Assembly (NCBI RefSeq): GCF_026210795.1 | Contig: NC_089433.1 | Location: forward strand, 3,435,001 to 3,499,000 | Source of the DNA: Rhizophagus irregularis | Taxonomy: Eukaryota; Glomeromycota; Glomeromycetes; Glomerales; Glomeraceae | Reading direction: 5' to 3' | DNA: 64,000 nucleotides | Shown: piece by piece, positions 14,786-62,190 of the stretch | Layout of the letters: each line of letters opens with the position of its first letter | How positions within the stretch are numbered: position 1 is the first letter of the stretch | Made by a program: the position numbers and the translations under genes | The notes under the pieces: model-generated | Databases searched by the model: none | Told to the model about the DNA's origin: nothing | Seen by the model: only the letters and a program-made list of their open reading frames with translations

Positions 14786-15182
14786 ATATTTAAAGTATTT
14801 AAATTAAATAGTATAATTCATACCTCATTTAGAAATTCATCAGTAATATTTCGGGGGTTGTGTAAACATTTTAAATTAACTCTTGTATCCTGGTTTCTTG
14901 AATATTTTCGTTATATTTTAATGGACCATCCTTCCATATTGCCGAATAAATTGTAGAACATTCATCTTTATCTAACTCTTTAATATCATTAAACTGATCA
15001 TATGGTATCCATTCAGTTATATTATCAGAACTTCGAAGGATTTCTAATTGCATTTCCTGAATTAAATTGTCAATTTTTTCATTTCCACTAGTCCAATTTG
15101 TAAAATTATTTTGTAGATTATTTATCTGACATGATTTGCACCATTCAAAACGTAAATACTTTCCACATCTTTCACATTTCAT

Positions 15183-16387
15183 TGTAATAATAATATGGTT
15201 TATACTATTTTAAAATTTTTCAACGTTTACAAGAAATGAAAATCTTGGAACGTCCAACAAGTTTCTTATCTATTGATTTGTTGGCGTAACGTCACATTTG
15301 CCACAAGTCCCATTAATTGATTAAATATTGTTGTGAATAATCATTTGGGTGACACGTGTGACGATTAATTCCATAAATGTTTATTATGTATTTTATAAAA
15401 TATATTAATAAAAATAAATTCAGTTCAAAACTAGCAGTTACCCGCTGCTACCAATGAGTTTGTTTAAGAATTAAGTAGAACAATTTAGTATTATAATGTA
15501 AATCATATCGACAATTAGTAGATTGATATAAATTATATTTACAGTATTAGAATAATATAAATTAGTATATTTAGAATACAATATTAGAATTATATGAATT
15601 ATATTTACAATAATGTCAATAATGTAAATGATATAAATTACAGTGCATTAGGGTAATTTAAATTATATTTACCATTAATAGGTATATGTAATATGAGAAT
15701 TTAATACGTTGATATGATTAATGATTATATGGCGTTTATGCAATTATGATCTATAAAATTTATGCCTGCTCTATACTTGGTTTTTGTTCTCTACACTTGG
15801 CTTTTGATTTTTTCTGTGACGGGCTTGACTTTCATTATTTAATCTTTTTTTACGTTGTTCAGATATTTCACTTTCAAATAATTAAGCCATATGGATTTAG
15901 TATTAACAAAATATTACATATTATATTGATGGAAATTTTTGATACTTAATATATCATTTATGAAATATAAAAAAAAAATTCTCAATAATATATACAATAC
16001 ATGTGGTTCATCGTTCAACAATATATTTGTACAGTATATTATTTAAAAAAAAAATATTTAAAAAAATTTCTTACTGCTTTTTATTATATATTAAAAAAAC
16101 CTACAATAAAAAAGAAATTAACAATTATGTCTGCAATTTATTATTGTTAAAAAAAAATTCTCAAAAAAGAGATATTATCTTAACACGTCCATTTATTATT
16201 ATCTTTGGTAAAATAAATCAAATTATTCTACAGCCAAATAGGATCATGCTTTTTTCATCATGCTGATATTTTTTTATTAAGCTATAAATAAACTACCATT
16301 GCATAATTATTATTGATATTTTTGACGTTGATTAATCAATAGTTTATTGTATTTATAAGATGATCATTGGCGGCTGCAGAATAACAC
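15183..16387. other. AT-rich intergenic region upstream of kinase locus A
   Basis: The first ~60 bases include the leader motif shared with locus B (CGTTGAAAAATTTTA, AAACCATAT). The rest is low-complexity AT-rich DNA; the short open frames at 15746-16266 have no recognisable motif. Confidence 0.4.
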
Positions 16388-24879: not shown

Positions 24880-26985
24880 AGTGTCGACTTGCAAATTGCA
24901 ATTCCATTATCATGGAATTAATCGTGATTTTAAATTAAAAGATGTATCATCATTACTGAAAGAGACGACATTTATAATAAGAGGAACTAAATTATCAAAT
25001 TATGGAGATTATCTAATATTTTTTAAAAAAAATTTAATATGCAAAAATTTCGTATTAATTTCATCAGCCATTCCGCCATAATATATTCTAATTATAGTAA
25101 AGAAAACAACTAAATTATTGTTGATAAATCCATAAATAAAGTCTTTGTTGGCGGTCTAATCAGCTACACAAATAAATTTGGTAGCGTAAAATCACGATAT
25201 TTATATTTACTGTGAAATAATTGGTTTGATACTTTTTTGATCTATCCTTCTCAGATTTACATACGTACTGTAGGTAGGATGAATTTTATTCAAAAATTTC
25301 GATGTTAGTAATCTGATGATGAATTTCTATGTAGAATCTAAAATACATACGATACATATAAGTTTATTAATAAATCGGTCATAGACGTAAATGAACATTA
25401 ATTTACATATATCAAGAAAAAAAAATCGGAATAAATGAGTCGTCACTTTATTAATCTATTTATCCACGCCATGTTATCATTGACCAAAACGGGATCACTA
25501 TTAATTTGCTGCGCCATGTAAGACGCAAAAAAAAACTATATTTATAATAACAAGCAAATATTTAACATAACGGGAAGCTAATAATTAATGATAAATCGCA
25601 AATTTAAATATATTATTTTTATTAAATAAATAAATTCTTTATTTCTTTGCAGAAATCTGTGATTTATTACTATGTGGTTAAGTAATCACCGTTAAATCAT
25701 TATCCAATACGTGTATTATGAATGTTACAGTTTTCAAAAAATTTACTACAAAAAACTACAATGAATATGATCCATAAAAAAAAATATTAATTGTTAAAAT
25801 AACTTTTAAACCCTTTCGTTCCTATATAATGAAAAATAAAATTCAATAGTTTCAAATTTGTTAGAATTTCATAATAATAATTTCAACTTCTTTTCTTTCA
25901 AAACATTAATGTTTACTATTTAATAAGATATATTTATAGTATAATGTAAGTACAGTTATAAAACATATACAATATGATAACAACAGTGAAGCCAGCTTAA
26001 TTTTTTAGCATAGTAAATAAAAAAGAATTGGCAGTGTAATTAAATTTAAATTGCTGCAAAATGATATGAACATTTTCGAAGCCTATTCATTTATTTAGAA
26101 TGTACATATACAGTCTAAAATAAACTTTTAAACTTTAAATAAACTTTAAGGAACTTACTTTTTTTTTGTTTCAAAAATAAATTGACAGAGTATATTTTGA
26201 TTATTTTTATTTAATAATTTTTTTAACAGTTTGTTTGATAATTTTTTTTTTGATAGGCTTATTTGATAATCTCTCCGACAGATCCACCCGAAATTTTGAT
26301 AGTGTATGTTTGATAATTTTTTGATCCTGTATGTCCATTTGATATTTTTGTTTGATAGAAATAGAGTCCATTTGATATTTTTTTTTTTAAAGGGTACATT
26401 TGATAATGATTTTGATAGGGTTCATTTAATAAGTCTTTAGATAAGATCTGGAATATCTGAAAGTTTGTGTGAGCAAAGAAAAAAATTCGATTAACAACGT
26501 TTTTAAAATGTGATTTTATTATTCATTGACCTATTAACTGTTAACATTCAACATTTAATAGCAAAATTTCAGTGAAAAAGTTTCCGTAATGATTTTTTAT
26601 TTGTTTAAATCTCTATTTATTGTTCATTGTCCATTGTCCCATCACAATTTTATTTTTATGAAGGGTCTGTCGTACAAAATTGAACGGACTTTTTTTTTAC
26701 CGAAAGAGAATTAGAGAAGATCAATGATAATTAAGAAATGATTGTCAATGGAAAATTTTTTTCCGGAATTTAAAATTTGACAATGATCAACAAATGATTG
26801 ACGTAAAAAATATCTATTTTTGCAGAAAACGCTCAACAAAATGATATCATTGATGAAGCGGATATTTTAATTGTTGCAACAATATAAATACAAATGCAGT
26901 TTGCAGATCTCAACAAGGTTCTTTCCTCCTGGTTTCTGAATTTTTTTTTATTTCTATAAACGTTGAAAATTTTTTAAACCATATA
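24880..26985. other. Non-coding region upstream of kinase locus B
   Basis: AT-rich with a degenerate repeat at 26190-26430 built from words such as TTTGATAGGG and CATTTGATAATTTTTT. The last ~60 bases share the leader motif CGTTGAAAATTTTTTAAACC with locus A and probably contain the promoter and 5'-UTR. Confidence 0.4.
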
Positions 26986-28982
26986 ATGTCATATTATAGT
27001 GAATGTGTTTACAAATGTGAAAGATGCGGTAATTATGCTCCTTCCGGATGGTGCAAATCATGTCAAATAAATGATTTAGAAAAAAATTCTACAATTAGAA
27101 TGAGTGGAAACGAGCAAATTGATAATTTCATTCAAAAAGCGCAATTAGAAATTAATAATTATAATAACATAGTTGAATGGATACCATATGATCAGTTCAA
27201 TAATATTAAAGAGTTAGGAAAAGATGAACTTACTACAATATACTCAGCTATATGGAAGAATGGTCCATTACAATACGATTATAATAAATGTGAATATTCA
27301 AGACAACAGAATAATAAAGTCAATTTAAAGTCATATAACTCGAAATATTATACATATGAATTTTTAAGTCAGGTATGAATTTTTCTTTTAACTTAAACAT
27401 TATAAATATAGTAAACAAAAATTTTTTTATTTAATAGGTTTACGTTGCATATTCTACTGGTAACGTTCGTGAATTTGGACCTAATATATATGGAATATCT
27501 CAAAATCCTCATGCAGAAAGTTACATTATAGTTTTTCCAAATGGTTATCATTGTGATAAATGTGGTAAAAAATTTACAGTTGAAAAATGGTGTAGATCAT
27601 GCCAAATTAGTGATTTAGAAAAAAAATTTACAAATTGGACCAGTGGAAATGAAAAAATTGATAATTTAATTCAGGAAAGGCAATTAAGGATTAATTTTTA
27701 TACTGATTTTATAGTTGAATGGATACCATATGATCAATTTAAAAATATAGAAAAAGTTAACTTTACTGATGGAATATATTCAACTATATGGAAAGATGGT
27801 CCATTATATTATGATAATAGTAAATGTAGCTATCTAAGAAAACAGAATAAAACAGTCAATTTAAAATATTTGCATAACTCTCAAAATATCATTGATGAAT
27901 TTCTAAATGAGGTATAAATTTTTATTATTTTTTCACAATCAATGGATGATTCATAATATTGAAATTAAATTTTAAAATTTCTATTTTAATAGATTAAAAC
28001 ATACTCAATTAGTAAAAGTTTTTGTGGGATGTCTCAAAAATTGGATACAAAAGATTATATTTTAGTTTTCCTTCAAAACGAAACTTGTGATAAGTGTGGT
28101 AGACAATTTACATATGAAAATACTAAATATTGTAAACCATGTCAAATTGATGATTCAGGAAAAATATCTACAAATCGGATTAGTGGAAATAAGGAAATTG
28201 ATAATTTAATTCAAGAAATGCAATTAAATATTAATAACCATGGTACCGTAGTTGAGTGGATACCATATACTCAATTCAATATTATTAAAGAATTAGGAAA
28301 AGATAAACTTATTACAATATAATTTAGCAAGATGGAAGGATGGTCCATTAGAATACAATAATAGTGAATGGAAATATTTAAGAAAACAAAATAATATAGT
28401 CAATTTAAAGGTATATAATTCACAAAGTATTTCCAATGAATTTATAAATGAGGTATGAATTTCATTATTTGATTTAAATATTATATATATAATAAGTAAT
28501 TTTTTTTTTATCTTGATAGATTAAAGCATATTTAAATGATATTTATAGTGATAATATTAAAATATATGGAATATCTCAGAATTTAAATACAAAGGATTAT
28601 ATTTTAGTTCTTGAAAATATATACTGTAATAAATGTTGCGAATATTCTAGATCGATGTGGTGCCAGCTATGTAACATAAATAATCTAAAAAAAAATCTTA
28701 TTAAATGGACTAGTGGAAATAAAAAAATTGATAATTTAATTCAGAAAATGCAATCAAATAATGATAACCATGATTTCATAGTTGAATGGATACCTTATAA
28801 TCGCTTCAGTGATATTGAAGAGTTAGGAAAAAATAAATTTGATACAATATATTCAGCAATATGGGAAGATGGTTTATTAAAATATGACAGTGATAAATAT
28901 GAATATACAAGAAGGCAGAATACAAAAGTCAATTTAAAACAGTTATATAATTCACAGAATATTTCTAATAAATTTCTAAATG

Positions 28983-29262
28983 AGGTATGAAATCTTTATT
29001 TTTATTTTTTATTTTTATTTAACAGTAATAGTTAGCGGATACAAATTTTATAAACATATCAAAAATGAAAAAGTAAAATAAAAAAATGAACTAAACTATC
29101 AGAAGAATCTACTTCGACGGTGGGGCAATTAAACACGAAACTATTAAAGATATAACCAACTACACCTAAAAACCATTTCTTTAATTAACCCACTACCTCC
29201 CATACGCTAGCCGAAACTTGGTAAGTTGAAGCCCGCCCTGCAGAAGGTATGAAATCTTTATT
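28983..29262 (-). mobile_element. Retroposon (SINE-like, 244 bp) with 18-bp target duplication
   Basis: The 18-bp word AGGTATGAAATCTTTATT occurs at 28983-29000 and again exactly at 29245-29262. The insert between (29001-29244) begins with a T-rich tail (TTTATTTTTTATTTTTATTT), that is, an A-rich tail on the minus strand, and is GC-richer at its other end (CTGCAGGGCGGGCTTCAAC on minus). Long duplication plus A-rich tail fits target-primed reverse transcription. The duplication copied the 5' splice site of exon 4 of locus B. Confidence 0.75.
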
Positions 29263-29451
29263 AACACCCAAGTAGGATTTTAAGGCGATTTTTTACTTTA
29301 AAAGGCAAAAATTTTGGTTGATCATTTCATTTTTCACCAAAATTTTCTATTCCGTTTTTGAAAATCATCCACATGCATAGTTGCCATGGATACAAAAAAA
29401 ATTGCCTTTTTCGTAAAAAACTCTCAATTTAATCTTAAGTATTAGTACAGT

Positions 29452-29501
29452 ACTGTACATGTACATGTACAAGTACAAGAACATGTACATGTACATGTAC
29501 A
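29452..29501. repeat. Self-complementary GTACAT microsatellite
   Basis: Repeats of the palindromic word TGTACA / GTACATGTACATGTACA, able to fold on itself. Confidence 0.8.
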
Positions 29502-29631
29502 GAGAAAGTGAACATTCACTATGGAAACTTTTTGCACTGAGTTTAACTGTGCTGCTCAAAAAGAATGTTAACTTGACAGATCATGAATAAATCAACATTT
29601 TTTAATAATATGTCGATCATTTTATTAAAAT

Positions 29632-29855
29632 ATAAAAAAAATTAATTTTTTTAATTAAAAACATCCAGCTTGACGTTTTTGTGATTAAAAAATCAAAAAA
29701 ATTAATTTTTTTTTAATTAAAAACGTCCAGCTTGACATTTTTGTAATTAAAAAAAATCAAAAATATTAATTTTTTAATTAAAAACGTCAGGCTTGACATT
29801 TTTGTGATTAAAAAATAAAAAAAAATCAATTTTAAAAACGTCAGGTTTAGCTTGG
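29632..29855 (+). repeat. Tandem repeat, unit about 60 bp
   Basis: Four diverged copies containing AATTAAAAACGTCCAGCTTG followed by ACATTTTTGTGATTAAAAAA. Intronic to locus B. Confidence 0.7.
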
Positions 29856-29910
29856 CATTAGTTCAGGTTGTAACATCAATATAACCTGAATGACTAATAT
29901 TATTATTTTA

Positions 29911-32060
29911 TTAAAAAAACGTTGCAAAAACGTTTTTTCTATAAGATTGTATTAGAAAAAAACGTTTCGTAACGTTTTTTTTGATATTTTATTAAAAAAC
30001 GTTGCGAAAACGTTTTTCTATAAGGTTATATTAGAAAAAACATTTCGCAACTTTTTTTTTGAAAAACGTTGCGAAAATATTTTTTCTATAAGATTGTATT
30101 AGAAAAAAACGTTTTGCACCGTTTTTTTGATATTTTATTGAAAAATGTTGCAAAAACGTTTTTTCTATAATTTTATATTAGAAAAAACGTTTTGCAACGT
30201 TTTTCTTGATATTTTATTGAAAAACGTTGCAAAAACGTTTTTTTCTATAACACTATATTAGAAAAAAACGTTTTGCATCATTTTTTTTGATATTTCATTG
30301 AAAAACATTGCAAAAACGTTTTTTCTATAACGTTATATTAGAAAAAAAAACGTTTTGCAACGTTTTTTTTGATATTTTATTGAAAAACGTTGCAAAAACG
30401 TTTTTTCATAATGTTATATTAGAAAAACGTTGCGAAAACGTTTTTTCATAATGTTGCATTAAAAAAAACACTTCGCCAATTGATTATTAAGCAATTTGAT
30501 AATAAATAATGGGTTCATTCCTGTTTTAAATTGATTTAATAAAAAAATGTGTGAACCTGTTTGCCATTAAAAAATTTAATAATAAATAACAGGTTTGCAC
30601 AGTTTTTAATTGATTTAATAATTAAATGGTGCGAACCTGTTTTTTATTATCTAATCACTTAACAAGAAATGGGTCACGCCATTTCTTTATTAAACCATTG
30701 TGCATAGTACCCATTATTTGTTATCAAATTACTAATCAAAAATAATGGATTCTCACCATATTTTTTATCAAATTGCTAATAATTTAATATGTAATAATGT
30801 GAACTCTTAAAACTTCAAAAATTATTAAAATTAATTTTAACCCTCACAATTTAAGGGATAGTTAGTAAATAATTTATATTAGAAAAAAACGTTTTACAAC
30901 GTTTTTTTTGTCATTCTATTGAAAAACGTTGCAAAAACGTTTTTTCTATAACATCTATATTAGAAAAAAACGTTTTGCAACGTTTTTTTTGATATTTTAT
31001 TGAAAAACGTTGCAAAAACGTTTTTTCTATAACATTATATTAGAAAAAACGTTTTGCACCGTTTTTTTTTGATATTTTACTGAAAAACGTTGCGAAAACG
31101 TTTTTTCTATAATTTTATATTAGAAAAAAACGTTTTGCAACGTTTTTTTGTCATTCTATTGAAAAACGTTGCAAAAACGTTTTTTCTATAACGTTATATT
31201 AGAAAAAACGTTTTGCAACGTTTTTCTTGATATTTTATTGAAAAACGTTGCAAAAACGTTTTTTTCTATAACATTATATTAGAAAAAAACGTTTTGCAAC
31301 GTTTTTTTTGATATTTCATTGAAAAACGTTGCAAAAACGTTTTTTCTATAACGTTATATTAGAAAAAAAACGTTTTGCAACGTTTTTTTTTGATATTTTA
31401 TTGAAAAACGTTGCAAAAACGTTTTTTCTATAACGTTATATTAGAAAAAAAAACGTTTTGCAACGTTTTTTTGATATTTTATTGAAAAACGTTGCAAAAA
31501 CGTTTTTTCTATAACGTTATATTAGAAAAAAAAACGTTTTGCAACGTTTTTTTTGATATTTTATTGAAAAACGTTGCAAAAACGTTTTTTCATAATGTTA
31601 TATTAGAAAAACGTTGCGAAAACGTTTTTTCATAATGTTGCATTAAAAAAAACACTTCGCCAATTTGTTATTAAGCAATTTGATAATAAATAATGGGTTC
31701 ATTCCTGTTTTAAATTGATTTAATAAAAAAATGTGTGAACCTGTTTGCCATTAAAAAATTTAATAATAAATAACAGGTTTGCACAGTTTTTAATTGATTT
31801 AATAATTAAATGGTGCGAACCTGTTTTTTATTATCTAATCACTTAACAAGAAATGGGTCATGCCATTTCTTTATTAAACCATTGTGCATACCCATTATTT
31901 GTTATCAAATTACTAATCAAAAATAATGGATTCTCACCATATTTATTATCAAATTGCTAATAATTTAATATGTAATAATGTGAACTCTTAAAACTTCAAA
32001 GATTATTAAAATTAATTTTAACCCTCACAATTTAAGGGATAGTTAGTAAATAAATTATAA
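29911..32060 (+). repeat. Hairpin-forming satellite array in intron of kinase locus B
   Basis: Units of roughly 78-82 bp combine AAAAACGTTGCAAAAACGTT, TTTTCTATAACGTTATATTA, GAAAAAAACGTTTTGCAACG and TTTTTTTGATATTTTATTG. Each unit is largely self-complementary. Two arrays (about 29911-30460 and 30865-31640) alternate with a ~400-bp spacer (30470-30870 and 31655-32055, offset 1184 bp) that is nearly identical in both places, so the arrangement is a higher-order duplication of array plus spacer. Confidence 0.85.
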
Positions 32061-34219
32061 TGCTTAAAAGCTCACTAACTTGTACTTAATTACCCTAGTT
32101 TAATTTAAATATTAAAAATATAATGAGTAATTTTTTCTTTTAATAGGTCAAAACATATTTTAATAATAATCAAATATATGGAATATCTCAAAATACAAAT
32201 ACGAGAGATTATATTCTAATTCTTCAAAATATATATTGTAGTCGGTGTTGTAAACTTTATACAGGTTCAGGTAGATTTAATGAATGTATATCATGTCAAA
32301 TAATTGGTTTAAAAAAAAATTTTAAATTCTGGACCAGTGGAAATAAAAAAATTAATAATTTTATTCGGAAAATGCAATCAAAAATTGATCCCCATAGAGT
32401 AGTATTTAAATGGATACCATATGATCAGTTTAATGATATTAAAGAGTTAGGAAAAGATGAATTTACTACCGTATATTCAGCAATATGGAAGGATGGTCCA
32501 TTACAATACGATTATAAAGAATATGTATATTCAAGAAATAAGAATATAAAAGTCAATTTAAAATTATATAATTCACGAAATAATATCAATAATGTTTTAA
32601 ATAAGGTATGAATTTTCTCTATTTAATTTAAATGTTATAAATATAATGAAGTAATATTTTTTATTTAATAGGTTACATATTTATTTGATAACAAGTATGA
32701 CGAAATTATATATGGATTATCTCAATATCCTCATACAAAAAATTATGTTATAGTTTTTCCAGATGGATATCATTGTGATAAATGTGGTAAAGAATTTGAA
32801 TATAAACGTTATAAATGGTGCAAACCATGTCAAATAAATAATCTAGAAAAAAATTTTACAAACTGGAGTAGTGGAAATGAAAATATTGATAATTTAATTC
32901 AGGAAATGCAATCAAAGATTAGTTCATATGAAGATATCGTATTTGAATGGATACCATATGATCAGTTTTGTAATATTAAAGAAATAGGTAAAGGTGGCTT
33001 TTCTAAAATATATTCAGCAACATGGATTAATGGTCGATTAATGTATGATATTAGTAGATGTGAATACATAAGATGCTCTATAACAATTGCTTTGAAATGT
33101 TTAAATAACTCTCAAAATATTTCAAATGAATTTCTGAATGAGGTACGAGATTTTTCTGTAAATTTTTATATAAATTAATGTACATGTAATAACGATCTTT
33201 TATATTTTGATAGGTCAAAGCGTATTCAGTTGAATTGGATATTTATAATTTCCGAAATAAAAGACTTCATACGTATGGAATATCTCAAAATCCAGATACA
33301 AAGGAATACATTATGGTACTTAAGTATGCAAAAGGTGGAGATTTTAATTGTTGGATGAAAAAAAATTATAAAAATTTAAATTGGTCAAATAAGTTGGATG
33401 TATTATCTAACATTATTATTGGACTTGAAGAGATTCATCAAAATAAGATGGTTCATCGTGATTTTCATACAGGAAATATACTGTTAAATAAATCCCATTT
33501 GAAAGATATACTTTTATTCAATGATATTATAAAACATTTCAGATATGGGATTATGTGGATATGTCAATAATATTGATCAAAATAGTATTTATGGAGTTAT
33601 GCCTTATGTAGCTCCTGAAGTATTAAAAGGAAAACCTTATACTCGAGCAGCAGATATATATAGTTTTGGCATGATTATGTATTTTGTAGCCACTGGAAAA
33701 CAACCCTTTGTCAATTATGCGCATGATGAGGTTTTAGTATTAAATATTTGTAATGGAAATAGACCTGAAATTAATGTACCGGAAGCACCAAAATGCTATA
33801 TTGATTTAATGAAACAGTGCTGGGATTCAAATCCAAATAATCGACCAATAGCAACTAAAGTTTTAGAATTTATTGATTTTTTTATTGGCTCATATAAAAA
33901 TGTTGTTAATGATGCATTAGACTTTAAAAAAGTACGACTTTCTGAAATTGAAAAACAATTCAAAGCAGCAGAAGAATACAGAAAATCACGTCTCATATTA
34001 TATAATGAAAATGAACGATCAACTATTCATCCACAAGCTTTTTATACATCACGATTACTTAATCAATTTACAAAAGATCTCCCAAAAAATGATAATATTA
34101 ATAATAATTCAGTAGAAGTGATTGACTTTACAAAGTGAGTACAATGAGTACAATTAAATTATTTGTTTAACAATATATGATTATATAAATTAATTATATT
34201 TTTCTTTTGTAGTTTATAA

Positions 34220-42603: not shown

Positions 42604-45600
42604 TCATTCATCACTACAATATACAAAAAATTTATTCAATTTATAATACAATTATAGAATTGTTAACAAAAATTAAAACAGTACTTACTTTGTAAAATCA
42701 ATTACTTCTACTGAATTATTTCCAATATTATCATCTTTTGGAAGGTCTTTTGTAAATGGATTAAGTAATCGTGATGTATAAAAAGCTTGTGGATGAGTAG
42801 TTAATCGTTTACTTTCGTCAAATGGTGTGAGATGTGATTTTCTGTATTTTTCTGCTTCTTTGAATTGTTTTTCAATTTCATAATGTTGTTGTTCTTTTTT
42901 AACTTTCACAATTCTTTTGAAAGCAAATTTATCATACTTATATGAATAAAAAAATAGATCAATTAATTCAAGAATTTCAGCTATTTTTGGTCTATTGTCT
43001 GGATTTGAATCCCAACAATTTTTCATTAATTCACCATAACATTTTGGTATTTCTGGTTCATTTACTTCAGGTCTAACTCCGTTGCATATATTTATTGCTA
43101 AATATTGATCATGTGCACAATCAGAAAATGGCTGTTTTCCAGTTCCTACAAAATACATAGTCATACCAAAGCTATATATATCTGCTGCTTGAGTATAAAG
43201 TTTTCCTTTTAATATTTCAGGAGCTACATAAGGCATAACTCCATAAATATTATTTTGATTAATATCATTAACTTTTCCACATAATCCCATATCTGAAATA
43301 TATACACTATTATCATTTAAACTATTAACATAAATAGCATTTAATAATATATTTCCTGTATGAAAATCGCGATGAACCATCTGATTTTGATGAATTTCTT
43401 TAAGACCTTTAATAATATTCCATAAAGTTGTTAATTTATATGACCAATCAAAATTTTTGTAATTTTTATTTGCCCAATGATCAAAATTTCCACCTTCTGC
43501 ATAATCAAGAATCATTATATAATCTTTTGTAATTGGATTTTGTGAAATTCCATATATTTTAAGGACATTATTATTAATATAACTACCATATTTTTTAGTT
43601 GAATATCCTTTAACCTACAAATAATAAAAATTATCATCACTAATAAATAGCTGAAATAATTAAGTTGTAATAAAGAAAATTCTTACCTCATTTAAAAATT
43701 TATTTGAGATATTTTGTGAGTTATGCAAGCATTTTAAAGCAACTTTTTTATTCTGAGTTCTTATATATTCATTATAACTATTATTATAATACAATGGACC
43801 ATTTGTCCATATAGCTGAATATACTTTAGCAAAGCCACCCTCGCCTACTTTTTTAATATTACTAAACTGATTGTATGGTACCCATTCAAATACTATATCA
43901 TCATAAGAATTAATTTTTGACTGCATATCTTGGATTAATTTGTCAATCACTTCATTTCCACTGTATTGACATATTGGACATAACTTCATATTTACATTTA
44001 TATATTTTCTACTACATTTTTCACAATATTCATCCTGAAAGATTATAAAATATTCTTTTGTACTTGGATCTTGAGATATTCCATATAATTTGCAATTTGA
44101 ATAATCCTTAGCCTATTAAATATGAAAATTGCCATATTCAGTTACTATATTAAAAAATTTTAAATTTAATTTATAAGTAATTTCTTACCTCATTCAAAGC
44201 AATATCTTGTAAATTATATACTTTTTTAAAAGTAACTCTCTTATTCTTGTTTTTATTCCTTATATATTTAATCTGATTTCCATAATATGATGGTCCTTTC
44301 TTCCATACTGCAGAATAGATTTCAGTAAAGTCAGATTTGATTATTTCTTCAATATTATTGAACAGACTATATGGTATCCATTCGAATACTATGCCATCAT
44401 AATCACTTTTTAATTGCATTTTTTTAATTAAATAGTCAATTTTTTCATTTTCATCAGCATGAACTGTAAAATTTTTATTAAAATAATTTATTCGGCATAG
44501 TTTACACCATCTACCATATGTATATAGTCCACATTTGTCACAATATCCAGCTTCGAGAACCATAATATAATCTTTTGTATCTGAATCTTGGGATATTCCA
44601 TATACTTCACAATCTGAATAATTCTTAATCTATCAATTTTGAAAAAAATTATTGTTTAAATTCATTCATTTATAATAAAATCTAGTGGTAAATTACATAC
44701 CTCATTCAGAATTTCATCAATATTATTTTGTGGATCACATAAATTTTTTAAGGTAATACTTTTATTTTGATTTAAATTTCTTACATATTTGTTTTTACCA
44801 ATATAATATGATGGACCATTCTTCCATACTGCTGAATAAATTTTACTAGTAAAATCGCATTCGTCCATTTCCTTAATATTATTGAATTGATCATATGGTA
44901 TCCATTCAAATACTATACCGCTATAATCATTTTTTAAATGCATTTCTCGGATTAAATTTCCAATTTTTTTATTTTTATCAATGCAGTATGTAAAATTCTT
45001 TTTAATATAATTCATCTGACACGGTTCACATTCACTGTATGTAGTAGGCAGTTCACAGTATTCACAATATTTACCTTCAAAAACCAATATATAATCACTT
45101 TTATTTTGAGAAATTCCATATATTTTACGATCTGAACGGTTTTTTATCTATTAAAACATAATAGGTTATTATTATATTATTTATTAAGTATTTAATTCAA
45201 ATTTATAAAATTTCATACCCAATTATATTCACAAATGATATAGTGTAAATCAATATATTTTAATACAACCTTTACGTTCCGAATTCTTATATATTTATTT
45301 ATATTAATATCACGATGATATGGACCATCCTTGCATAATGCTGAGTAAGCAGAACTACTTTTATCAATTTCTTTAATATTATAAAACTGTTCGTATGGTA
45401 TCCATTCAAATTTATCATAAGAATCAAGTTCGAATCGTATTTTTTGAATTATATTATTAATTTTTTGATCCCAACTATACCGTATTTTACATGTTGAACA
45501 TTTGGCATAGGATGTAAATTTTCGGCCACATTTTATACAATATACATTATCAAGAACAAGAGCATAACCATTTGTATCTGGATTTTGAGATATCCCAAAT

Positions 45601-46048
45601 ATATCACTATTATAAAATTTGACCTATTAAGGCATAAAAAAATGTTATTATATAAATGTAAGTAATTATAATAAAATTATAAAGTTCATACCTCATCTGC
45701 AATATTATGAGATTTAGAGATATATTTTAAAGCAATATTTATATTCTTTTTTCTTATGTATTTATTTTCAGTAAATTCATAACGTAATGGACCATCTTTC
45801 CATATTGCTAAACATAACCTATTCATACTATTTCCTTTAATATCATCAAACTGGGAATATGGTATCCATTCAAATATAGCATGATCAAAGGAATCGACTT
45901 TTAATTGCATTTCTCGAATTAAATTATCAATTTTTCCATTTCCACTGGTCCAGTTTTTGAAATTTTTTCTCAAATACCTTAATAGACATGGTTTGCACCA
46001 TTCATAATAATGACAATTATAATTGCGACATTTTTTACATATCGCCAT
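42604..46048 (-). CDS. Kinase C: four degenerate zinc-ribbon/N-lobe units plus a complete TKL-like protein kinase
   Basis: Seven exons: 46048-45692, 45623-45219, 45147-44701, 44629-44189, 44112-43687, 43614-42689, 42613-42604. They join to 3012 nt (1003 residues) with no break. Internal introns 1-5 are phase 0 at the same codon. Units end at about residues 119, 254, 403, 550 and 692; each has a four-Cys ribbon (CKKC...CKPC, CIKC...CSTC, CEYC...CEPC, CDKC...CKLC, CEKC...CPIC) and FEWIPY plus an IYSAxW-like N-lobe. Loops of units 1-4 lack the GxGxxG glycines; unit 5 has VGEGGFAKVY (loop about 640-645) and VALK Lys about 677. C-lobe: HRD 773-775, DMG about 800, APE about 823, WDSNPDNRP. Predicted active Ser/Thr or Tyr-type kinase of the TKL group, cytosolic. 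Substrate unknown. Start at 46048 matches locus D. Confidence 0.85.
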
Positions 46049-48413: not shown

Positions 48414-50927
48414 ATCATCGCTGCTTCGCAGTGATCATGCTTAGGTTTAACGTGGCTGTAGGATAATATGAGTTGTATAATTTGTTGTTCATTTTTGGTT
48501 AGATTGATATCCTCCAATCAGCTTTGATATTGTAATACCAGAATTATCTAGTGAATTTATTAATTATGGCATGGGGCACAGTTTTATATTTAGTTTAAGT
48601 GTATAAATTTTGTTTGTTATTTTTAGATAACTCCTGTCACATGAGTATAAACTGGACACGTGTTTAGAAGATCTATGAATTAATCACAGGGATTGAAATG
48701 AGGCTTAGAAATATCTTTTGAATGTAATCAACGCTCATAAGAATTATAAGAGGTATTCAACCATTAAGGAGGACAATATATTTTCCTATTTTACCCATTA
48801 TATTATTTTTCGATTCTTTTTGCCTTTTTCTTATGATGAAAAAGTGCCACATTAATTAATTTTAATGGTTGATAGAATGTATATGAGAGGAGACTATCGA
48901 AGGTTGATTCTAGAATTTAGTTTAATAGGATATTATGAACATTTTATATAGAGAAGATATTTGGTTATTAAATAAAGGAATATTTTGTTAACGACTCGAT
49001 GTGGTAAGAATTTATATAACGGGATTGAGCGTTACAATATCAGAGTCTTGCCATCTGATCATTGATACCTTTTTTTAAACTATTTTAGTGATTTTTTTAA
49101 GTATTTTTTTTATGGCTTAAAGCTGTTTTTAAAGTAGTTTGTATATATATATATATATTTTTACTTTTTAATTTTTCTCATATTTAACCATTTTATAACA
49201 ATTATTTTATTATATTTCACCTTATAATTTTAAAAGCTTATATATATATTAATTATTTTATTTTTCCTCCTAGTTTGGAATCTTGTGATTTTTTTTTATT
49301 GTAGGAATGTAACTAAGGCTCCTTTTCTCTCTACATCTTTGGATTTTGAACTGGATTCCCAAAATTGTAAATTGAAAGCGTACGAATATTTTCTTAGACT
49401 TTGAAATGTTATGCTAAGCTTAGGTTTATTTCTTTTCTTTTTTTTCTTATTTAGGTGACTTTCTTTTTTTTCTCAATTTCTATTTTTTATTTTGGCGTTT
49501 ATTAATATTCTATTATAATTAGGATTGATGGACTGGCCTAAAATTGCTGAGGATCAAACTAGTTCACATCACGTCTTTAATTATAACTAAACATCCTTTT
49601 AAAAAAATTTATCCATATAATTAAGTTATACCTAGATTACACTTTATAAATTAATTTTGAATTGCGTAATGTATATCATGTCTCTGCCAAATTTATTACA
49701 GATTTCCATCATATAGAATTTTAGCCAGAATAGTTTTGACCGGTAAATTAGCGTATATGAACACCGATCATTTTGTTGGCTACACGACCTTTCCGTTAAT
49801 ATGATTACGTTGATCATTAGGTTCGTATATTAACGTTAGATTATTTTTACTAATGATTCATTATCAATGTAACCAATTCGGATGATTAAAGAAATGGGCA
49901 AATTATGATAAATTTAATAAATAAAAGAATTTATTAATATTTTTGTCCATATTACAGCTTATTCCAGAATATTATTTGTGTGCAATTATGAATTACCTAC
50001 TATGTGCTTTAATCCCGGTGCGAAGAAACGGGCTATTGCTAATTTTGTTCTTATTGCTTTAATAAAGAATTCTTGATTTTTCGAAAGGGAAATAATAAAT
50101 AAATTATTTATTATCTTTATTTAAATAACTCGATTTTTTGAGTATCTGATATAAACGAAAATTTTAATTAAATAGTATATTTTATCAGTTCAAAAACATT
50201 TAATTAACAAATCTAACAATGAATTCAAATTTTAAAAAGTCATTGAAGCTTTAACCAGTTATAAAAATTTTCAAAAAAAAAAAATCAAATATTTGATATT
50301 ATGAGTAACTCAGTATACAATTAAATTTGCGGTTACAACAATATTGCTATAAAATATTAATTTATTATATATTTTGGAAAAAACTATTAATACTATAAAA
50401 TACCATAAATTATTAATAATTTTACTTTTTTTAAAAAAATTTAATTTAACTAAAATTTTCCAAAAATTTTAAAATTCATAAAAATAATTCGAATTTAAAA
50501 TAAACTGGCAGTTGTCATTTGTCATTGAAATGGAAATAAAAGAATTAGGTATATCATACTGTACAAAAAAAAAAAGATCTGCATGACTGCATGACTGCAT
50601 GACACGACGTACAAAATGTCGGCCCGATTAATATAACAATCAGCTATTCGTCCTGTAATGAAAAGTCAGGTGACTCCAAATATTACGACATTCCGCTTAT
50701 CTTTTAAATAGGAAATTTATTTATAAATTAATACAATAAATAGTAAATACGCCAATTATGTTTAATCATACATAGTATTCTTAAAATAGAAAATTTTCCA
50801 GCACATTTAACTTTTTCCCTCCCACTTTCACAAAAAGTGTTTCTTATATAATTTTTTAACGATTACATCATTTTTTAATTTTATAAAATTTTTTATAAAG
50901 AAACTAAAAAAAAAATAACAATCTAAA
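48414..50927. other. AT-rich spacer before the MBOAT gene
   Basis: No coding sequence recognised. The 3 x TGACTGCA short tandem at about 50580-50602 and the MBOAT leader at the right end are the only visible structures. Confidence 0.35.
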
Positions 50928-52199
50928 ATGATTTCATTCCAGGAATTCCCACCAAAATTACCTTTACATATATTACAAATAATTTTTTTTACTCTCTTTT
51001 CCACTTTCGTTGCGTTTTCATTAGAACCTCCGAAATCACTATTTAGATACTTTATCTTAATCAATATAATTGTATGTTTGTTAACACTTCCGATCATATA
51101 TCGAGGAAAATATGAGGAATATGAAATAGTTCCGTTAACATTATTGGCATTTGGTTGGAGCTTTAAAATGATGATTTGGTTAAAAAAATGTTTATACGCC
51201 GAGAAGGAGAAACAAATAGGTCCATTTTATTTGACTATGTTTTATTGGAGAAAATTGCCGGAAAAAACGAATAAAAGTCGAGAAATATCAATTAAAGACA
51301 TAAATATTTACATAATTAAGCGTATTATTATATTACTTTTTAAGTGGATTTTATTTGAAATATTATACAGATGGATAACAAATAATATTCCTGAAATACC
51401 TGAAGGGATTTACCCGGTTCGAATTTTCAACTGGATTACAAAAGGAATTCCAGCTTTAACACCTTTTTTATTATTTTATTACGCTGTAACTACATTTTTT
51501 GTCACAATCACGTTATCTTTAGGATACGATCTATTCCTTATTATAAATGGAATATTTTTAAGATTTCTTATCACTTTAAAAGATGAAAAAAGTATCTTCT
51601 TTTTCGAAAAACAGCATATGAAACATATTAAGGAATGGTGTATATCCATGATTTATGATACAAATCATATGTTTAGATATCCTTACTTATCAACATCTCC
51701 GCGAGATCTTTGGTCATTCAGATGGCAATTATTCTTAAACGAAAGTTTTAAAGAATTAGCTTATTTACCAGCTCGAAACCTTTTCATTAACAGATCAAAA
51801 AATTTTAGGGATGCGATCGGAGTTTTAGCAGCATTTACTATGAGTGCCATATTACACGAATATCTCATATTCGTTCTTTTTAATAAATTTTCATTTGATA
51901 ATTTTTTCTTCTTTACTTCACATGGAATTATTCTTGTTATTTGGGAAAGTATCTTTGGATCAATAAAAGAAAATGAAGAAAGTTCTTCTAAAAGAATTTT
52001 TTTAAGGTGGAGTATTATGATGATGATCATTTTATTCACTTTACCTGGATTTGTTGAACCATTTGTACGACATCCTCGTTGGGTTGCCTCATCTGTATTT
52101 TCAAGCTATACAAGAGATCCTTCTCACAATTTCAATTTTTCGAAATTTTTAAATTATGATATCAGATATTTTTCATCTTTTAAACCTTTAGAAACCTAA
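50928..52199 (+). CDS. MBOAT-type acyltransferase, wax-synthase-like
   Basis: Single-exon gene, 423 residues. Hydrophobic segments at about 12-58, 66-88, 126-150, 172-215, 290-320, 325-343 and 358-375 make it a multi-pass membrane protein, most likely of the ER. SPRDLWSFRWQ (257-267) corresponds to the xSxRDFWGRRWH block of wax synthase-type MBOATs, and AILHEY (307-312, His310) to their conserved histidine. Members transfer an acyl group to a fatty alcohol, sterol or secondary-metabolite hydroxyl; the acceptor here cannot be predicted. The histidine usually found at the end of the RDFW-RRWH motif is Gln267 here. The start is the only Met before the first helix, and an AAAATG context precedes it. 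No operon-like neighbours. Confidence 0.82.
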   Translation: MISFQEFPPKLPLHILQIIFFTLFSTFVAFSLEPPKSLFRYFILINIIVCLLTLPIIYRGKYEEYEIVPLTLLAFGWSFKMMIWLKKCLYAEKEKQIGPFYLTMFYWRKLPEKTNKSREISIKDINIYIIKRIIILLFKWILFEILYRWITNNIPEIPEGIYPVRIFNWITKGIPALTPFLLFYYAVTTFFVTITLSLGYDLFLIINGIFLRFLITLKDEKSIFFFEKQHMKHIKEWCISMIYDTNHMFRYPYLSTSPRDLWSFRWQLFLNESFKELAYLPARNLFINRSKNFRDAIGVLAAFTMSAILHEYLIFVLFNKFSFDNFFFFTSHGIILVIWESIFGSIKENEESSSKRIFLRWSIMMMIILFTLPGFVEPFVRHPRWVASSVFSSYTRDPSHNFNFSKFLNYDIRYFSSFKPLET

Positions 52200-54790: not shown

Positions 54791-56678
54791 TCATTCATAA
54801 CTACAACATACAAAAAATAAAACCAATTAATACAATTATAGAATTGTTAACAAAAATCAAAACAGTACTTACTTTGTAAAATCAAATACTTCTACTGAAT
54901 TATTTCCAATATTGTCATCTTTTGGAAGGTCTTCTGTAAATGGATTAAGTAATCGTGATGTATAAAAAGCTTGTGGATGAGTAGTTAATCGTTTATTTTC
55001 GTCAAATGGTGTGAGATGTGATTTTCGGTATTCTTCTGTTTTTTTGAATTGTTTTTCAATTTCATAATGTTGTTGTTCTTTTTTAATTTTCACAATTCTT
55101 TTGAAAGCAAATTTATCATACTTATATGAACAGAAATATAGATCAATTAATTCAAGAATTTCGGTTATTTTTGGTCTATTGCCTGGATTTGAATCCCAAC
55201 ATTTTTTCATTAAATCAATAAAACATTTTGGCGCTTCTGACTCATTTATTTCAGGTCTAATTCCATTGCATATCTTTAATGCTAAAATCTTATCATGAGC
55301 ACAATCAGAAAAAGGCTGTTTTCCAGTTCCTACAAAATACATAATCATACCAAAACTATATATATCTGCTGCTTGAGTGTAAGGTTTTCCTTTTAACACT
55401 TCAGGAGCTACATAAGGCATAACTCCATAAATATTATTTTGGTTAACATCATCAGCTTTTCCACATAATCCCATATCTGAAACATATATACTATTATCAT
55501 TTAAATTATTAACATATAAAACATTTAATAATATATTTCCTGTATGAAAATCATTATGAACCAGTTGTTTTTGATGAATTTCTTCAAGACCTTTAATAAT
55601 ATTCCATAATGTTGTTAATTTATATGACCAATTAAAATTTCTATAATTTTTATATACCCAATGATCAAAATTTCCACCTTTTGCATAATCAAGAACCATT
55701 ATATAATCTTTTGTATTCGGACTTTGTGATATTCCGTAAATTTTAAGAACATTATTACCAGCATAATCATCATATTTCTTAATTGAATATGCTTTAACCT
55801 ATTAAATAATAAAAATTATCAATTAATAAATAACCGAAATAATTAAGTTGCAATATCTAAAATTCAAAAAAAATAATTTTACCTCATTTAAAAATTTATT
55901 TGAGATATTTTGTGAGTTATGCAAGCATTTTAAAGCGACTTTTTTATTCTGAATTCTTATATATTCATTACTACTATTATAATATAATGGACCATTCTTC
56001 CATATTGCTGAATATACTTTTGCAAAGCCACCCTGACCTACTTCTTTAATATTATCAAACTGACTGTATGGTACCGATTCAAATACTATATCATCATTTG
56101 AATTAATTCTTGATTGCATTTCTTGGATTAATTCGTCAATATTATCATTTCCACTTGTCCAGTTTGTTAATATTTTTTTATCCATTGTAATTGTACATTT
56201 TTCTTCACTATACTGAAAAACTATAACATAATCTTTTGTTTCTGGATGTTGTGATATTCCATATACTGGATATGCTTTAATCTATTAAAAGAAAAAAAAA
56301 ATAATATTTAAAAAAAATGAAATTTTGAATTGTATTAATAGAAGATTTAATACCTTATTTATGAATACATTAGTAATATTTTGTGAATTATATAAATATT
56401 TTAAAGTAACTTTTTTATTCTGAGTTCTTTTATATTCATGTATACTATAATCATAATATAACATCCCATTTTTCCATATTGCCGAATATACTTCAGCAGC
56501 AAAATCGCCTTCACCTATTTTTTTAATGTCATCAAGCTGACTATATGGTATCCATTCAAATACTATGTCATTATGTGAATTAATTTTTAATTGCATTTCT
56601 TGGATTAATTCATCGATTTTTTCACTTCCACTAAAAAGACTATATTGGCTATATTGACATATAATACACAACTTAATA

Positions 56679-57371
56679 TACACTCCCGCGCAATAAGTTT
56701 AGGACCACCTTATTTTTGTTTATATAAATAATGTTTTATTCTTATTTATATAAGTTTTTTTTTAAAAAAAATTCTTTACATTGTAATTTCTTGAATAAAT
56801 ATAAAAAATTATCATATTGATCTTTATAAATCATATAATACAAGGTTTTTTTCTCAATGACAAATTTTTAACTTTTCAACCAGAGTGATTACAACAAAAA
56901 TAAGTACAAAATTTAAATAGTTAGGTAAACATAAGATTATATTTCAAATTTCGTAAAGATCGAATCAGTAGTTATTGAGAAATTAACAATTAAGAATCGA
57001 CAATTTATATATTTGACCTAATAAATAAATGATTTTCATATATAAATTGTCGATCTTTAATTATTAATTTCTCGATAACTACTGACTCAATTTTCATGAA
57101 ATTTGGAATATAATTTTATTGTTAGCTAAACTATTAGAATTTTGTATTCATTTTACTGTAACTGCTTTAGTTAAAGAGTTAAAATTTTACTATTAAAAAA
57201 AAACTTTATTTTACATGATTTATAAATGCAAATATGGTAATTTTTTATGTTTATTCAAAAAATTATAACACAAATTTTTTTTTTAAAAAAAATAAATTAT
57301 ATAAATAAGAATAAAACTTTATTAATATAAACAAAAATAAGGTGGTCCTAAACTTATTGCGCGGGAGTGTA
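56679..57371. mobile_element. Tc1/mariner-like hairpin MITE with TA duplication
   Basis: Element 56681-57369 (689 bp) starts CACTCCCGCGCAATAAGTTT, and its other end is the exact inverse (AAACTTATTGCGCGGGAGTG), flanked by TA on both sides. Inverted symmetry is not limited to the tips: inner arms also pair (ATCGACAATTTATATA with TATATAAATTGTCGAT around 56995-57055), so most of the element is one long fold-back. No transposase. It sits in exon 5 of kinase locus D. Confidence 0.88.
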
Positions 57372-59109
57372 TCCATTTGTATATTTCCTATTACATTTTT
57401 CACAATATTCATCATCCTGAAAGATAACAATATAATCTTTTGTACCTGGAGCTTGAGATATCCCATATAATATACAGTCTGTATAACTCTTGTCCTATTG
57501 TTAAATGTGAAAAAAAATTGTTATTCAATTAGTTATGTTGAAAGTACTTAGTAACTAAGTTTATTAAGAAATTACACACCACATTCAGATATTCGTCAGT
57601 AATATTTTGTAAATTGCATAAACTTTTCAATTTTACTTCTTTATTCCTATTTTTGTTTCTTATATATTGGTCTTTACTATTATAATATGATGGGCCATTC
57701 TCCCATACTGCTGAATAAATTTTAGTAAAGTCATATACATCCATTTCCTTAATATTATTGAACAGATTATATGGTATCCATTCGAATACTATGCCATCAT
57801 AATCACTTTTTAATTGCATTTTTTGAATTAAATAGTCAATTTTTTCATTTTCATTAGCGTGAACTGTAAAATTTTTATTAAAATAATTTATTCGGCATAG
57901 TTTACACCATTTACCATATGTATATAGTCCACATTTTTTACAATATCCATCTTCAAGAACCATAATGTAATCTTTTGTATCTGAATCCTGAGATATTCCA
58001 TATATTTCACAATCTGAATAATTCTTAATCTATCAATTATGAAAAAAAATACTGTTTAAATTCATTCATTTATAATAAAATCTAATAATAAATTACATAC
58101 CTCATTCAGAATTTCATCAATATTATTTTGTGGATCACATAAATTTTTTAAGGTAATACTTTTATTTTGATTTAAATTTCTTACATATTTGTTTTCACCA
58201 TTATAATATGATGGACCATTCTTCCATACTGCTGAATAAATTTTACTAATAAAGTCACATTCATCCATTTCCTTAATATTATTGAATTGATCATATGATA
58301 TCCATTCAAACACTATATCATTATAATCATTTTTTAAATGCATTTCTTGGATTAAATTATCAATTTTTTTATTTTCATTAGCGCAGTCTGTAAAATTCTT
58401 TTTAATATAATTTATCTGACACGGTTTACAATTACCATATGTAGTAGTATGCAGTTCACAGTATTCACAATATTTATCTTCGAAAACCAATATATAATCA
58501 TTTGTATCTGAATTTTTAGAAATTCCATATATTTTACAATCAAAACTGTTTTTTATCTATTAAAGCAAAAAAGTTATTATCTAAAGAGTATTTGATTCGA
58601 ATTATAAAATTTCATACCTTATTAAATTCATTAATGATATTTTGTGAATCGCCGTAAATATATTTTAATACAACCTTTTCGTTCTGAATTCTTATATATT
58701 CGTTTTTATTATTGTCATATTGCAATAAACCTTCCTTCCATAATGCTGAGTATACTTTAGGAGAATCATCCCTACCCATTTTTTTAATATCGAACTGATT
58801 AAATGGTATCCATTCAAATATATCATAAGAGTCAATTTCGAATTGTATTTTTTGAATTATATTATCAATTGTTGCATCCCTACTATACCGTATTTTACAT
58901 GTTAAACACACTTTATGGAATTTATATTTTTGGTTACATTTTATACAATATGCATCTTCAAGAACAAGAATATAATCATTTGTATCTGGATTTTGAGATA
59001 TCCCAAATATTTTATTAACAGCGTAACTTTTAATTGAAAAAGATTTGATCTATTAAGGAATAAAAAAAAAATTTAATAATTATACAAAAAAAAAGTAGTT
59101 ATAACTTTA

Positions 59110-59445
59110 TAGAAATCTCTTTATTTTAAACGATATCATTTCAATATCAAAATAATATCATTTTGATATCATTATGATATCGTCACAATATAGCTACTAT
59201 GCAATATCAAAATGATATTGAATAATATTTTAACAATATCGAAATTATATCGTAGTGATATTGTTAACGACATCGTTAAGATTATCTTAACGACCTTTGA
59301 TATTTATTATAAGATATCAAAACAATTTCGTTACAATATTACATTTATATCGTAACGATAAGTGATATCGTGATGATATTGTAATGAAATTGTTTTGATA
59401 TTGTTACAATGTCAAAATGGGGTTGTTATGATGATCTTACGATAT
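59110..59445. repeat. GATATC/ATATCG palindrome-rich tract
   Basis: Dense short palindromic words (AATATCAAAATGATATTG, ATATCGTAACGATA) over about 330 bp, overall partly self-complementary. It expands the first intron of locus D to 424 nt, against 68 nt in locus C. Confidence 0.65.
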
Positions 59446-59830
59446 TGTTTGAATAATTTATAAGATTTCGTACCTCATCCGCAATATTTTGAGAACTAGA
59501 GACATATTTTAAAGCAATATTTTTATTTGGGAATCTCGTATATCCTTCTGCACTATATCTATAAAGCAATTGACCATTTTTCCATATTGCTAAACATAAT
59601 CTACTCATATTATTTCCTTTAATATCATCAAATTGGTTATATGGTATCCATTCAAATACAATATCACTATAGGAATTAATTTTTAATTGCATTTCTTGAA
59701 TTAATTTGTCAACTTCTTCATTTCCACTAGTCCAGTTTGTGAAATTTTCTCTTAAATGGTTTATTCGACATTTACACCATCTATAGTAATTACTATGGTC
59801 ATCATAGCCACATATTTTACATATCGCCAT

Positions 59831-62190
59831 TGTACTATTCTGAAATTGTGATAGAAAGAAAAAACGAAAAATGTCAAATTAGCCAACATACCGTTAAAAA
59901 TTATTTGCATAAATACTATATTGTTGTGTGCCCGATCGTACATAAATGTACATATTCTATTTCCCAAAAATAGAAAATAAGAGGTCGATTATTTTAGAAA
60001 ATTTTTCTCGGATAAAAAATTTTTTTTTAATCACATAAAAATAAGTTTTCTTTATTTGTAACTAGTCATGCCCACAGCCAGCCTCTGGCTGGCCTTTACT
60101 AAGAGTATATTAAGGATTATAAATTTTGATGATTCAATTTGTTTTTAAAATGAAGTATTGTAAAATAAATAGAAATATTTATTTAGAAATTATATAATAA
60201 TATAATACATATTGACAATTTATACATGATGCCTTATATTAAATGTGAGAATATTTTTAGGGTAATTTTTAAAGATGATTTATACAAATTAAGATACGTT
60301 TACATGATTGTAGATGTACACTAATTGCTATATTTCATAATTTGATAGTTATAAAATTGGTAATAGTTGTGATGCTATTTGTTTTAGGTGAGTATATTCT
60401 CATATTTTATATTATATAAATAAAAAAATAATTGTAAATTTATCATTTATTCAATAAATCAATTAATGTAATTTTTTATCAGTAAAAAAAAGTACCGAAA
60501 TAAAAATAAAGGGAAATTTGTAGTTATCAAGAAATATGTACATTATAATAATATATAATGTTCAATAATTAAAGTTAATTTTTTTTTAATTTTTCTTGTT
60601 CTGGTTGAAATATTTGTTGGTTCCTCATCATTTTCACCATTATCTTCAATTTCTTTACATAATTAGTTGTAACTTTATGTATCAATTTCACAATAATTTA
60701 GAGAGTAGGAAAACTAATTTTTAAATGTAATTTAAATGCGTCTAGTTTTAATTTATTATAAAATGAACAACGTAAAACATTCATAAATTATGTGAACGGA
60801 AGAATTTGTATTTCAAAGTAATATTCATCACGAAAAAAATTTATTAAAATTCATCGCTTTAATAACTGTATATAAACTAATTATTACAATATCATAATAT
60901 ACAGAAATTTTTTCTTCATTCAGGTTTGAAATATTATTGTTAATAATGTATGTAGTTGAGTTATAGTTAAACCATTTACTTAATTGACATCTTTTGTTCT
61001 TAATATAATGGTACTTGACTTACTGAACTCTATGCTTTATTGAAAAAATTTGTCTAAACGTCATAGTATGAGTTAGATGCGATCGTAGTGATATCTTTTT
61101 AATGAAACATAAATATCTATATCACAAAATTTTAGAATTGGTTTTTATTTCTTAGCGATACAAGTATTTCAAGTATTTTGGTAATTTATCATCACTCTTT
61201 CATTAGTATGCGTAAAAAACGAAAGCGATGAAGAAACTATTCAGTCATAATTGGTGAGTTGGTGATATGTAATTTTCGCTTATTTAATTTATCTACTTAG
61301 TTTTTAATGTTTTATTATAATTATTCTCTTCAAGGATGTTGTTGCTATTCTTTTATTAGTATTTATTCTTTTATTAGTATTTTATTTTTTCATTGGATTG
61401 GCTTATTTTGTTAATTTCAGTTTTATGTTTATTTTTTTTTTATCGAAAGTTTTATTTTTTGTCTTCATTATAGTTAACAATCGTAGGTTATTTATTATAT
61501 ATATTTAACCATTCTATTTAATTGTTAAAGATAGTCCGCATCAAAAGATAAGATAGGTCATTAAAAATAAAATGTTGAGAAACATGAACAGGGAGAATTT
61601 TAAACTTAACTTGAACAAAAAGTTTAAACGTTATATAACTTACTGTTAAATTATGTCAATTGTCCAATATAATTTAATTTAAATCCAAAGAAGGTTCGGT
61701 TGAAACTATTTGTTGGAGAGCTTATGAACATTTGCACTAATATTTTTGCGTCATTGGTATGTTTAATAGTTACATAAAAAGCGTATTTTTTTTTGTATTT
61801 TATGAATCTCACTTAACAGATCACCAAACCTCACTAATAACAATAATACATATATGTGTGTATATATTCGCATTTAAGAGTTTCATTTATAAGCATATTA
61901 AATGCCTTATTATAAAAAGTAATTATAATCAATTATACATTATCATTAATTTAAATAAATTTAATAGATAATTTATTATTAAATAATTGTAAGACAAATT
62001 AAAAAAAAAAGTACAATAACATCTCGCATAATATAAAAAAAACTAGATTTTATAATACTTAAAATTAAAATTCCGCCGCTTTTTGTCGTTTAATTGGCTA
62101 TATAAATATCAGGTATAAAGTAAAATTAGAAATAGCAATTGTTTTTTTTTAAAAAAAAAACGACATAAAAAAGGTGATTAAATAATTTAC
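59831..62190. other. Spacer between kinase D promoter and acyl-CoA synthetase end
   Basis: The left part is duplicated with the upstream region of locus C (see 46049-46960). The rest is AT-rich with no gene recognised; in particular I found no coding sequence for the missing C-terminal part of the acyl-CoA synthetase. Confidence 0.4.

Follow-up and report, generated by a model that had tools for sequence, protein, structure and literature searches.

Why would a kinase gene carry several N-terminal lobes and only one C-terminal lobe? The question is raised by a locus at positions 42604-46048 of the window, that is, of the whole 64,000-nucleotide stretch of Rhizophagus irregularis DNA analysed here. 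The species has an expanded kinase repertoire, put at 2,533 kinases in one account (PMC10234402), and another names PF07714 as the most frequent motif among its expanded genes (PMC6123716). The first-pass annotation, made from the letters of the DNA alone, had read the locus (locus C, minus strand) through seven exons as a 1003-residue protein, and this reading is borne out by the splice sites and the translation: seven predicted exons, joined by GT-AG introns, give an open 1003-residue frame that ends in TGA.

Exon 1: 45692-46048, minus strand; ATG, four-Cys ribbon, linker helix and beta1-alphaC of unit 1, without glycine loop
Exon 2: 45219-45623, minus strand; beta4-beta5 (unit 1); ribbon, linker, beta1-alphaC (unit 2)
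Exon 3: 44701-45147, minus strand; beta4-beta5 of unit 2, then unit 3
Exon 4: 44189-44629, minus strand; beta4-beta5 (unit 3) followed by unit 4; N-lobe strands predicted
Exon 5: 43687-44112, minus strand; beta4-beta5 (unit 4) followed by unit 5, the terminal one, which carries GEGGF and VALK
Exon 6: 42689-43614, minus strand; beta4-beta5 of unit 5, complete C-lobe (HRD, DMG, APE) and tail
Exon 7: 42604-42613, minus strand; final codons and stop, placed by the GT-AG splice-site letters only

Exons 2-5 each open with beta4-beta5 and run directly into the ribbon, linker and beta1-alphaC of the next unit, and the five introns that join the units are phase 0, 68-76 bp long and contain in-frame stops if retained. 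The further claim of five N-lobe units, with a glycine loop in the last only and a single C-lobe behind it, is confirmed for locus C: GEGGF occurs in unit 5 alone, the four ribbon Cys are present in all five units, and the one C-lobe, after unit 5, contains HRDFHTGN, ISDMG and APE. Across unit 5 and exon 6 the terminal kinase has the glycine loop, VAxK, the alphaC Glu, HRD, DxG and APE. Units 1-4 had been said to lose the loop glycines and keep the N-lobe framework; the loss stands, whereas the framework motif IYSAxW is partial in units 1-2 (LCLAIW, AYSALC).

The C-lobe exon matches PF07714 (PK_Tyr_Ser-Thr) at 117.6 bits against a cut-off of 23.1 (E 7.7e-34). The terminal exon E5 stays under that cut-off (16.1 bits, E 0.0072), exons E1-E4 give no PF07714 match at E 1 or better, and none of five upstream window exons (four of locus C, one of locus B) rises above any Pfam cut-off. 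Because Pfam is blind to the upstream exons tested, annotation of such a gene probably shows one kinase domain behind an unannotated stretch. With no C-lobe between the units, units 1-4 fall outside PF07714, membership of which takes the profile and both lobes, and, having no C-lobe of any kind, upstream units also fall outside the usual definition of a pseudokinase as a complete bilobal domain. The ribbon consists of two CxxC pairs, and every Pfam zinc ribbon match to it is under cut-off.

Three further loci of the window had been credited with the same design; the design is indeed common to all of them, but each is damaged.

Locus D: 54869-59878, minus strand; six-unit paralogue of locus C; split unit 5, terminal unit without intact ribbon, HND in the catalytic loop
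Locus B: 26857-34138, plus strand; serial units, terminal GKGGF
Locus A: 9553-15209, minus strand; serial units, three or more of them broken; fragmented C-lobe

In locus B one unit (about 28011-28452) is frame-shifted and the C-lobe changes frame at 33533-33570; in locus D the terminal unit has no intact ribbon and HND replaces HRD in the C-lobe. What splits unit 5 of locus D is a 0.69-kb repetitive element (about 56681-57371) with 94-nt inverted ends (94%), of which four other full-length copies, about 100% identical, lie elsewhere in the genome; this identity makes the insertion look recent. Between units of locus A, a 140-residue open frame without Pfam match (12893-13315, minus strand) is possibly part of an insertion. 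Elsewhere in the window lie two neighbouring similar genes (4184-8775, minus strand), that at 4184-5359 with BACK and TLDc domains above cut-off, a 426-residue open frame with an MBOAT_2 match above cut-off (50919-52199, plus strand) and a fragment of an AMP-binding enzyme, also matched above cut-off (62396-62701, minus strand).

The serial N-lobe design is real and general in this genome, far beyond one window. Across 146.7 Mb in 32 contigs, each of four window-exon protein queries found at least 150 matches at E 4e-16 or better (for each, the best 150 of 3195-4670 first-look candidates), and the pattern of locus C is therefore more than chance. The union of the four lists comprises at least 322 distinct junction exons, 282 of which fall into 88 clusters with at least two members (281 in 87 under a slightly different rule). 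Internal stops are absent from 147 of the 150 exons of the first list, best matches being biased to intact ones. A C-lobe query gave at least 134 matches in the genome (128 of 4285 candidates scored). A query of a ribbon-less subtype and one of a third subtype gave at least 150 matches each, with 135 and 114, respectively, of the listed 150 in clusters of two or more, and none of the 150 listed ribbon-less exons is among the 322. The unit had been defined as ribbon, linker and N-lobe; linker helix and N-lobe do repeat, but the ribbon is optional, and since a whole subtype is without it, the conserved repeat is linker helix plus N-lobe rather than ribbon plus N-lobe. One scan of viral contigs with alignment A3 found no relatives.

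A detailed set of 24 arrays (20 hand-picked for compactness plus window loci A-D) holds 146 intact units, besides 23 partial or broken unit hits spread over 8 of the 24. Neighbouring units lie under 400 bp apart in 114 pairs, and in 108 of these a frame-keeping GT-AG intron separates them; every one of the 108 introns is phase 0 and would disrupt the frame if left in, and their median length is 72 bp. The longest array with its C-lobe read has 20 units (C2:5555500-5569800), the 19 upstream loops being shortened and without GGF. L039 (C2:1368300-1378200) has 20 complete ribbon-less units ending in DKGGF, its C-lobe lying outside the fetched piece, and shows a higher-order repeat in which a unit near 1313 recurs near 5650, protein-identical and with similar neighbours. 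L015 (C3:5525700-5534500) has 13 units, of which units 7-9 are nearly identical to each other. In L005 (C5:3320900-3324500), two units share one 330-residue open frame, with a 9-nt in-frame stretch at the expected place of the intron.

Kinase loci with a single unit also exist. That C-lobe loci without ribbon-type hits would be such kinases was considered and rejected: of eight hand-chosen C-lobe loci without a nearby hit among the 322, seven proved serial (six ribbon-less and one, L023, with ribbon), and the eighth, L027, has one partial unit and a C-lobe in pieces. Eight further PF07714 kinase loci comprise five with a single unit and an intact GG loop (L031-L034 and L036, the last without ribbon) and three with serial units (L029, L030 and L035). 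In four of the five single-unit loci a donor GT directly follows the common alphaC codon; in L033 the hit ends earlier.

What sets the last unit apart is its glycine loop. Across the 24 arrays, GxGGF occurs in 21 of 22 terminal units, L019 with DKGGF being the exception, versus 0 of 124 upstream units, among which the last units of L017 (where the piece ends before the C-lobe) and of locus A (true terminal unit broken) are counted. GxG is found in four of the 124, including unit 4 of L009, which keeps most of the loop (GKGGI). Upstream units have the four Cys in 117 of 124 cases (terminal, 18 of 22), the beta3 Lys in 107 of 124 and the alphaC Glu in 70 of the 90 with full hits, the other 20 having Lys. 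In ten serial loci of a second sampling, GGF is again confined to the last unit among units passing the length filter. A column comparison of 149 upstream with 37 terminal units, five of the latter from single-unit kinases, points the same way: the loop Gly, Gly and Phe are conserved at 1.0, 1.0 and 0.97 in terminal units, while upstream Asp is commonest at the two Gly columns (0.40 and 0.39) and Phe falls to 0.42; the Ala of VAxK goes from 0.89 in terminal to 0.26 in upstream units, and constraint is relaxed in part at the alphaC Glu (1.0 to 0.76) and the beta3 Lys (1.0 to 0.87). Conservation upstream remains at 0.93-0.99 in ten N-lobe framework columns (EW 0.99, W 0.97) and, in units that have a ribbon, at 0.97-1.0 in its Cys, and a linker Phe is more conserved upstream (0.86) than in terminal units (0.55); mean identity between upstream units of different arrays is 52%. 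Upstream units thus lose mainly the putative ATP-contact positions while the N-lobe framework stays. As for the C-lobes read, 15 of 18 have HRD in the catalytic loop; the others have HHD (L008), HND (locus D) and HHN (L015), so that the terminal kinase may be inactive in a few arrays.

For a degenerate exon, structure prediction is in part consistent with the N-lobe fold, a five-strand sheet with alphaC. An AlphaFold run with an alignment of 13 window exons gave a mean pLDDT of 66 for the degenerate exon 4 of locus C (the other four models 56.5 to 38) and 66 for a terminal-type exon of locus B. The exon 4 model has its strands in N-lobe order, with pLDDT of 71-84 in blocks of residues 81-140, and a poorly predicted alphaC end (pLDDT 36). 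Kinases make up 47 of the 50 structural matches listed for it, mostly over residues 80-143 (beta1 to alphaC), with EGFR, JAK2 JH2 and RIPK3 among the first and Z at most 3.8; RIPK2, JAK2 and EGFR lead for the terminal-type exon, with Z at most 4.2. Compared with a kinase the exon has its parts in permuted order, so that a sequential aligner can match only half of it, and a Foldseek search of the PDB yielded nothing at E 0.001 or better. A unit sequence profile found weak PDB matches (best E 0.079), the best 60 of 77 all being kinases (58 CK2 alpha, 2 ROCK2). The N-lobe-like sheet on which the earlier proposal had staked itself is therefore predicted for exon 4 in strand order and by its kinase matches, but at modest confidence and with a poor alphaC.

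Gene structure, intron phase, the terminal-only loop, framework conservation, family size and the single-unit architecture elsewhere, all read from the genome itself, lead us to a reading that we regard as on balance probable: multivalent, ATP-dead N-lobe repeats serve one terminal kinase, the architecture being on firmer ground than the role. One gene would give one kinase preceded by a row of N-lobe repeats without ATP-binding residues, all units presumably lying in one mRNA. The terminal unit alone, docking on the single C-lobe, would have kept the glycine loop; the upstream units would have lost ATP binding, and most likely are each folded and act as non-catalytic, multivalent binding or regulatory modules for that kinase, a role already proposed in the first-pass annotation, where decoys, dimerisation and scaffolds were named as candidates.

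A rather unlikely alternative, able to coexist with the reading just given, is that the arrays form a reservoir of cassettes from which alternative splicing makes kinases varying in the number or choice of units. The internal exons are phase 0 at both ends and could thus be skipped or selected without loss of frame; the 108 scored introns, phase 0 without exception, and the diversity of units within many arrays agree with such a reservoir. Upstream N-lobes chosen as working ones should, however, keep the loop, and GxGGF in 0 of 124 of them disfavours the swapping of active N-lobes, while exon skipping to vary unit number could still take place.

We think it unlikely that the rows are a by-product of tandem duplication, in which unequal exchange multiplies exons that are tolerated because the frame is kept and that have no selected function. 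Here the evidence on selection is divided. Codon models of L006/8/12 give an omega of 0.21 for upstream units (five positions), 0.26 for terminal units and 0.225 for the C-lobe, under the 0.396-0.585 returned by the same program in eight neutral simulations of that shape. The 20-unit array gives 0.43, within the 0.365-1.139 of six neutral runs shaped like it, and L002/L003 gives 0.58. Omega is thus under neutral in some arrays (L006/8/12) and indistinguishable from neutral in others (the 20-unit array and L002/L003); the simulated ranges leave only some arrays clearly constrained, and uniform clear purifying selection in all arrays, an earlier candidate, was dropped after the simulation. Further values are 0.346 upstream, 0.340 terminal and 0.238 for the C-lobe in L007/11/14, 0.24 in L015, 0.35 in L039 and 0.30 in a four-gene C-lobe set; the matching simulations cover L006/8/12 and the 20-unit array. 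Between loci C and D, the upstream units are relaxed compared with the C-lobe: by YN00 and maximum likelihood, omega is 0.56-0.59 upstream, 0.33-0.40 in the terminal unit and 0.23 in the C-lobe, and ranges by unit from 1.3-1.5 (unit 2) to 0.26-0.29 (unit 4). Pooled NG86 dN/dS (0.57 upstream, 0.61 terminal) was set aside because its neutral expectation here is 0.70-1.04.

A by-product would account for the near-neutral omega of the 20-unit array and L002/L003, for the equal divergence of units (0.109) and inter-unit gaps (0.107; introns plus short exon edges) in the former, for the partial or broken hits in 8 of 24 arrays and for near-identical neighbours such as units 7-9 of L015. It sits poorly with ten framework columns held at 0.93-0.99 despite a mean identity of 52%, with ribbon Cys held at 0.97-1.0, with the omega of L006/8/12 under simulation and with 36 upstream pairs in which neutrality would predict about 95-145 stops, these being non-independent pairs of units selected for open frames. 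Very improbable, finally, is an ordinary kinase made from the last one or two exons behind pseudogenic remnants: some arrays are damaged upstream, but in locus C it is exon 1 that has an ATG just ahead of its ribbon, whereas exons 2, 3 and 5 have none there and that of exon 4 falls within beta5; splice sites persist along arrays, with donors after the units of a 20-unit array, and the two L005 units are joined in frame by 9 nt where an intron would be expected.

The single unit in five of eight sampled kinases fits an origin of the repeat by tandem duplication of one N-lobe with its intron, single-unit genes presumably being the starting state. The simplest step would be duplication of a stretch of genome that starts ahead of the ribbon or linker, stops shortly after beta5 and includes the phase-0 intron. 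This would yield exactly these exons, in the middle ones of which the beta4-beta5 of a unit precedes the beta1-alphaC of its successor. In a tree of 186 units (79 columns, with the loop and VAxK columns removed), the units of L029 and L035 group together (0.93) near those of the single-unit loci L031/L032, both L030 units group together (0.994), as do all 22 ribbon-less units (0.77), and the ribbon-type arrays are mixed. This suggests that arrays arose more than once, a pattern that exon conversion within arrays could mimic. A test for monophyly of the terminal units did not find it, although for 14 of the 22 the nearest unit from another array is likewise a terminal one.

Kinase N-lobes are usually studied as half an enzyme. 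If our reading is true, hundreds of N-lobe exons kept as repeats without C-lobes would show that an N-lobe can exist as an independent module and would account for some of the great increase in kinases in these symbiotic fungi, and the arrays, from 3 to about 20 units, are a ready set for copy-number effects on a kinase. A wider generalization, which we offer tentatively as possible rather than probable, is that the N-lobe has become a free-standing repeat domain off catalysis, in up to about 20 copies per polypeptide and from more than one origin, retaining ATP binding only beside a C-lobe; such rows might make up a sensor or scaffold, shaped like a solenoid or like beads on a string, the valency of which evolves fast by exon duplication.

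Among known systems, locus C is like the expanded TKL-like kinases of R. irregularis in that its C-lobe exon passes PF07714; the accessible parts of the published accounts of these kinases (PMC10234402, PMC6123716) do not mention N-lobe repeats, and a limited search of literature available in part, including PMC8647823, PMC6123716, PMC4219462, PMC10234402 and PMC3886924, found no serial N-lobes.

The arrays resemble JAK-type tandems and pseudokinases in placing a non-catalytic kinase-derived module before an active one, and the structure matches include the N-lobe of the JAK2 pseudokinase. In JAK-type tandems a non-catalytic pseudokinase stands ahead of an active kinase, and the pseudokinase modules are complete and two-lobed; the upstream units here, by contrast, have no C-lobe and recur in rows of up to about 20. 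The 2019 survey of pseudokinases across life by Kwon et al. is said to have reported fungal expansions. Dscam-type clusters are tandem arrays of homologous, phase-matched alternative exons, and the arrays described here share with them the tandem, homologous, phase-matched exons but differ in that the working glycine loop lies in the last exon only.
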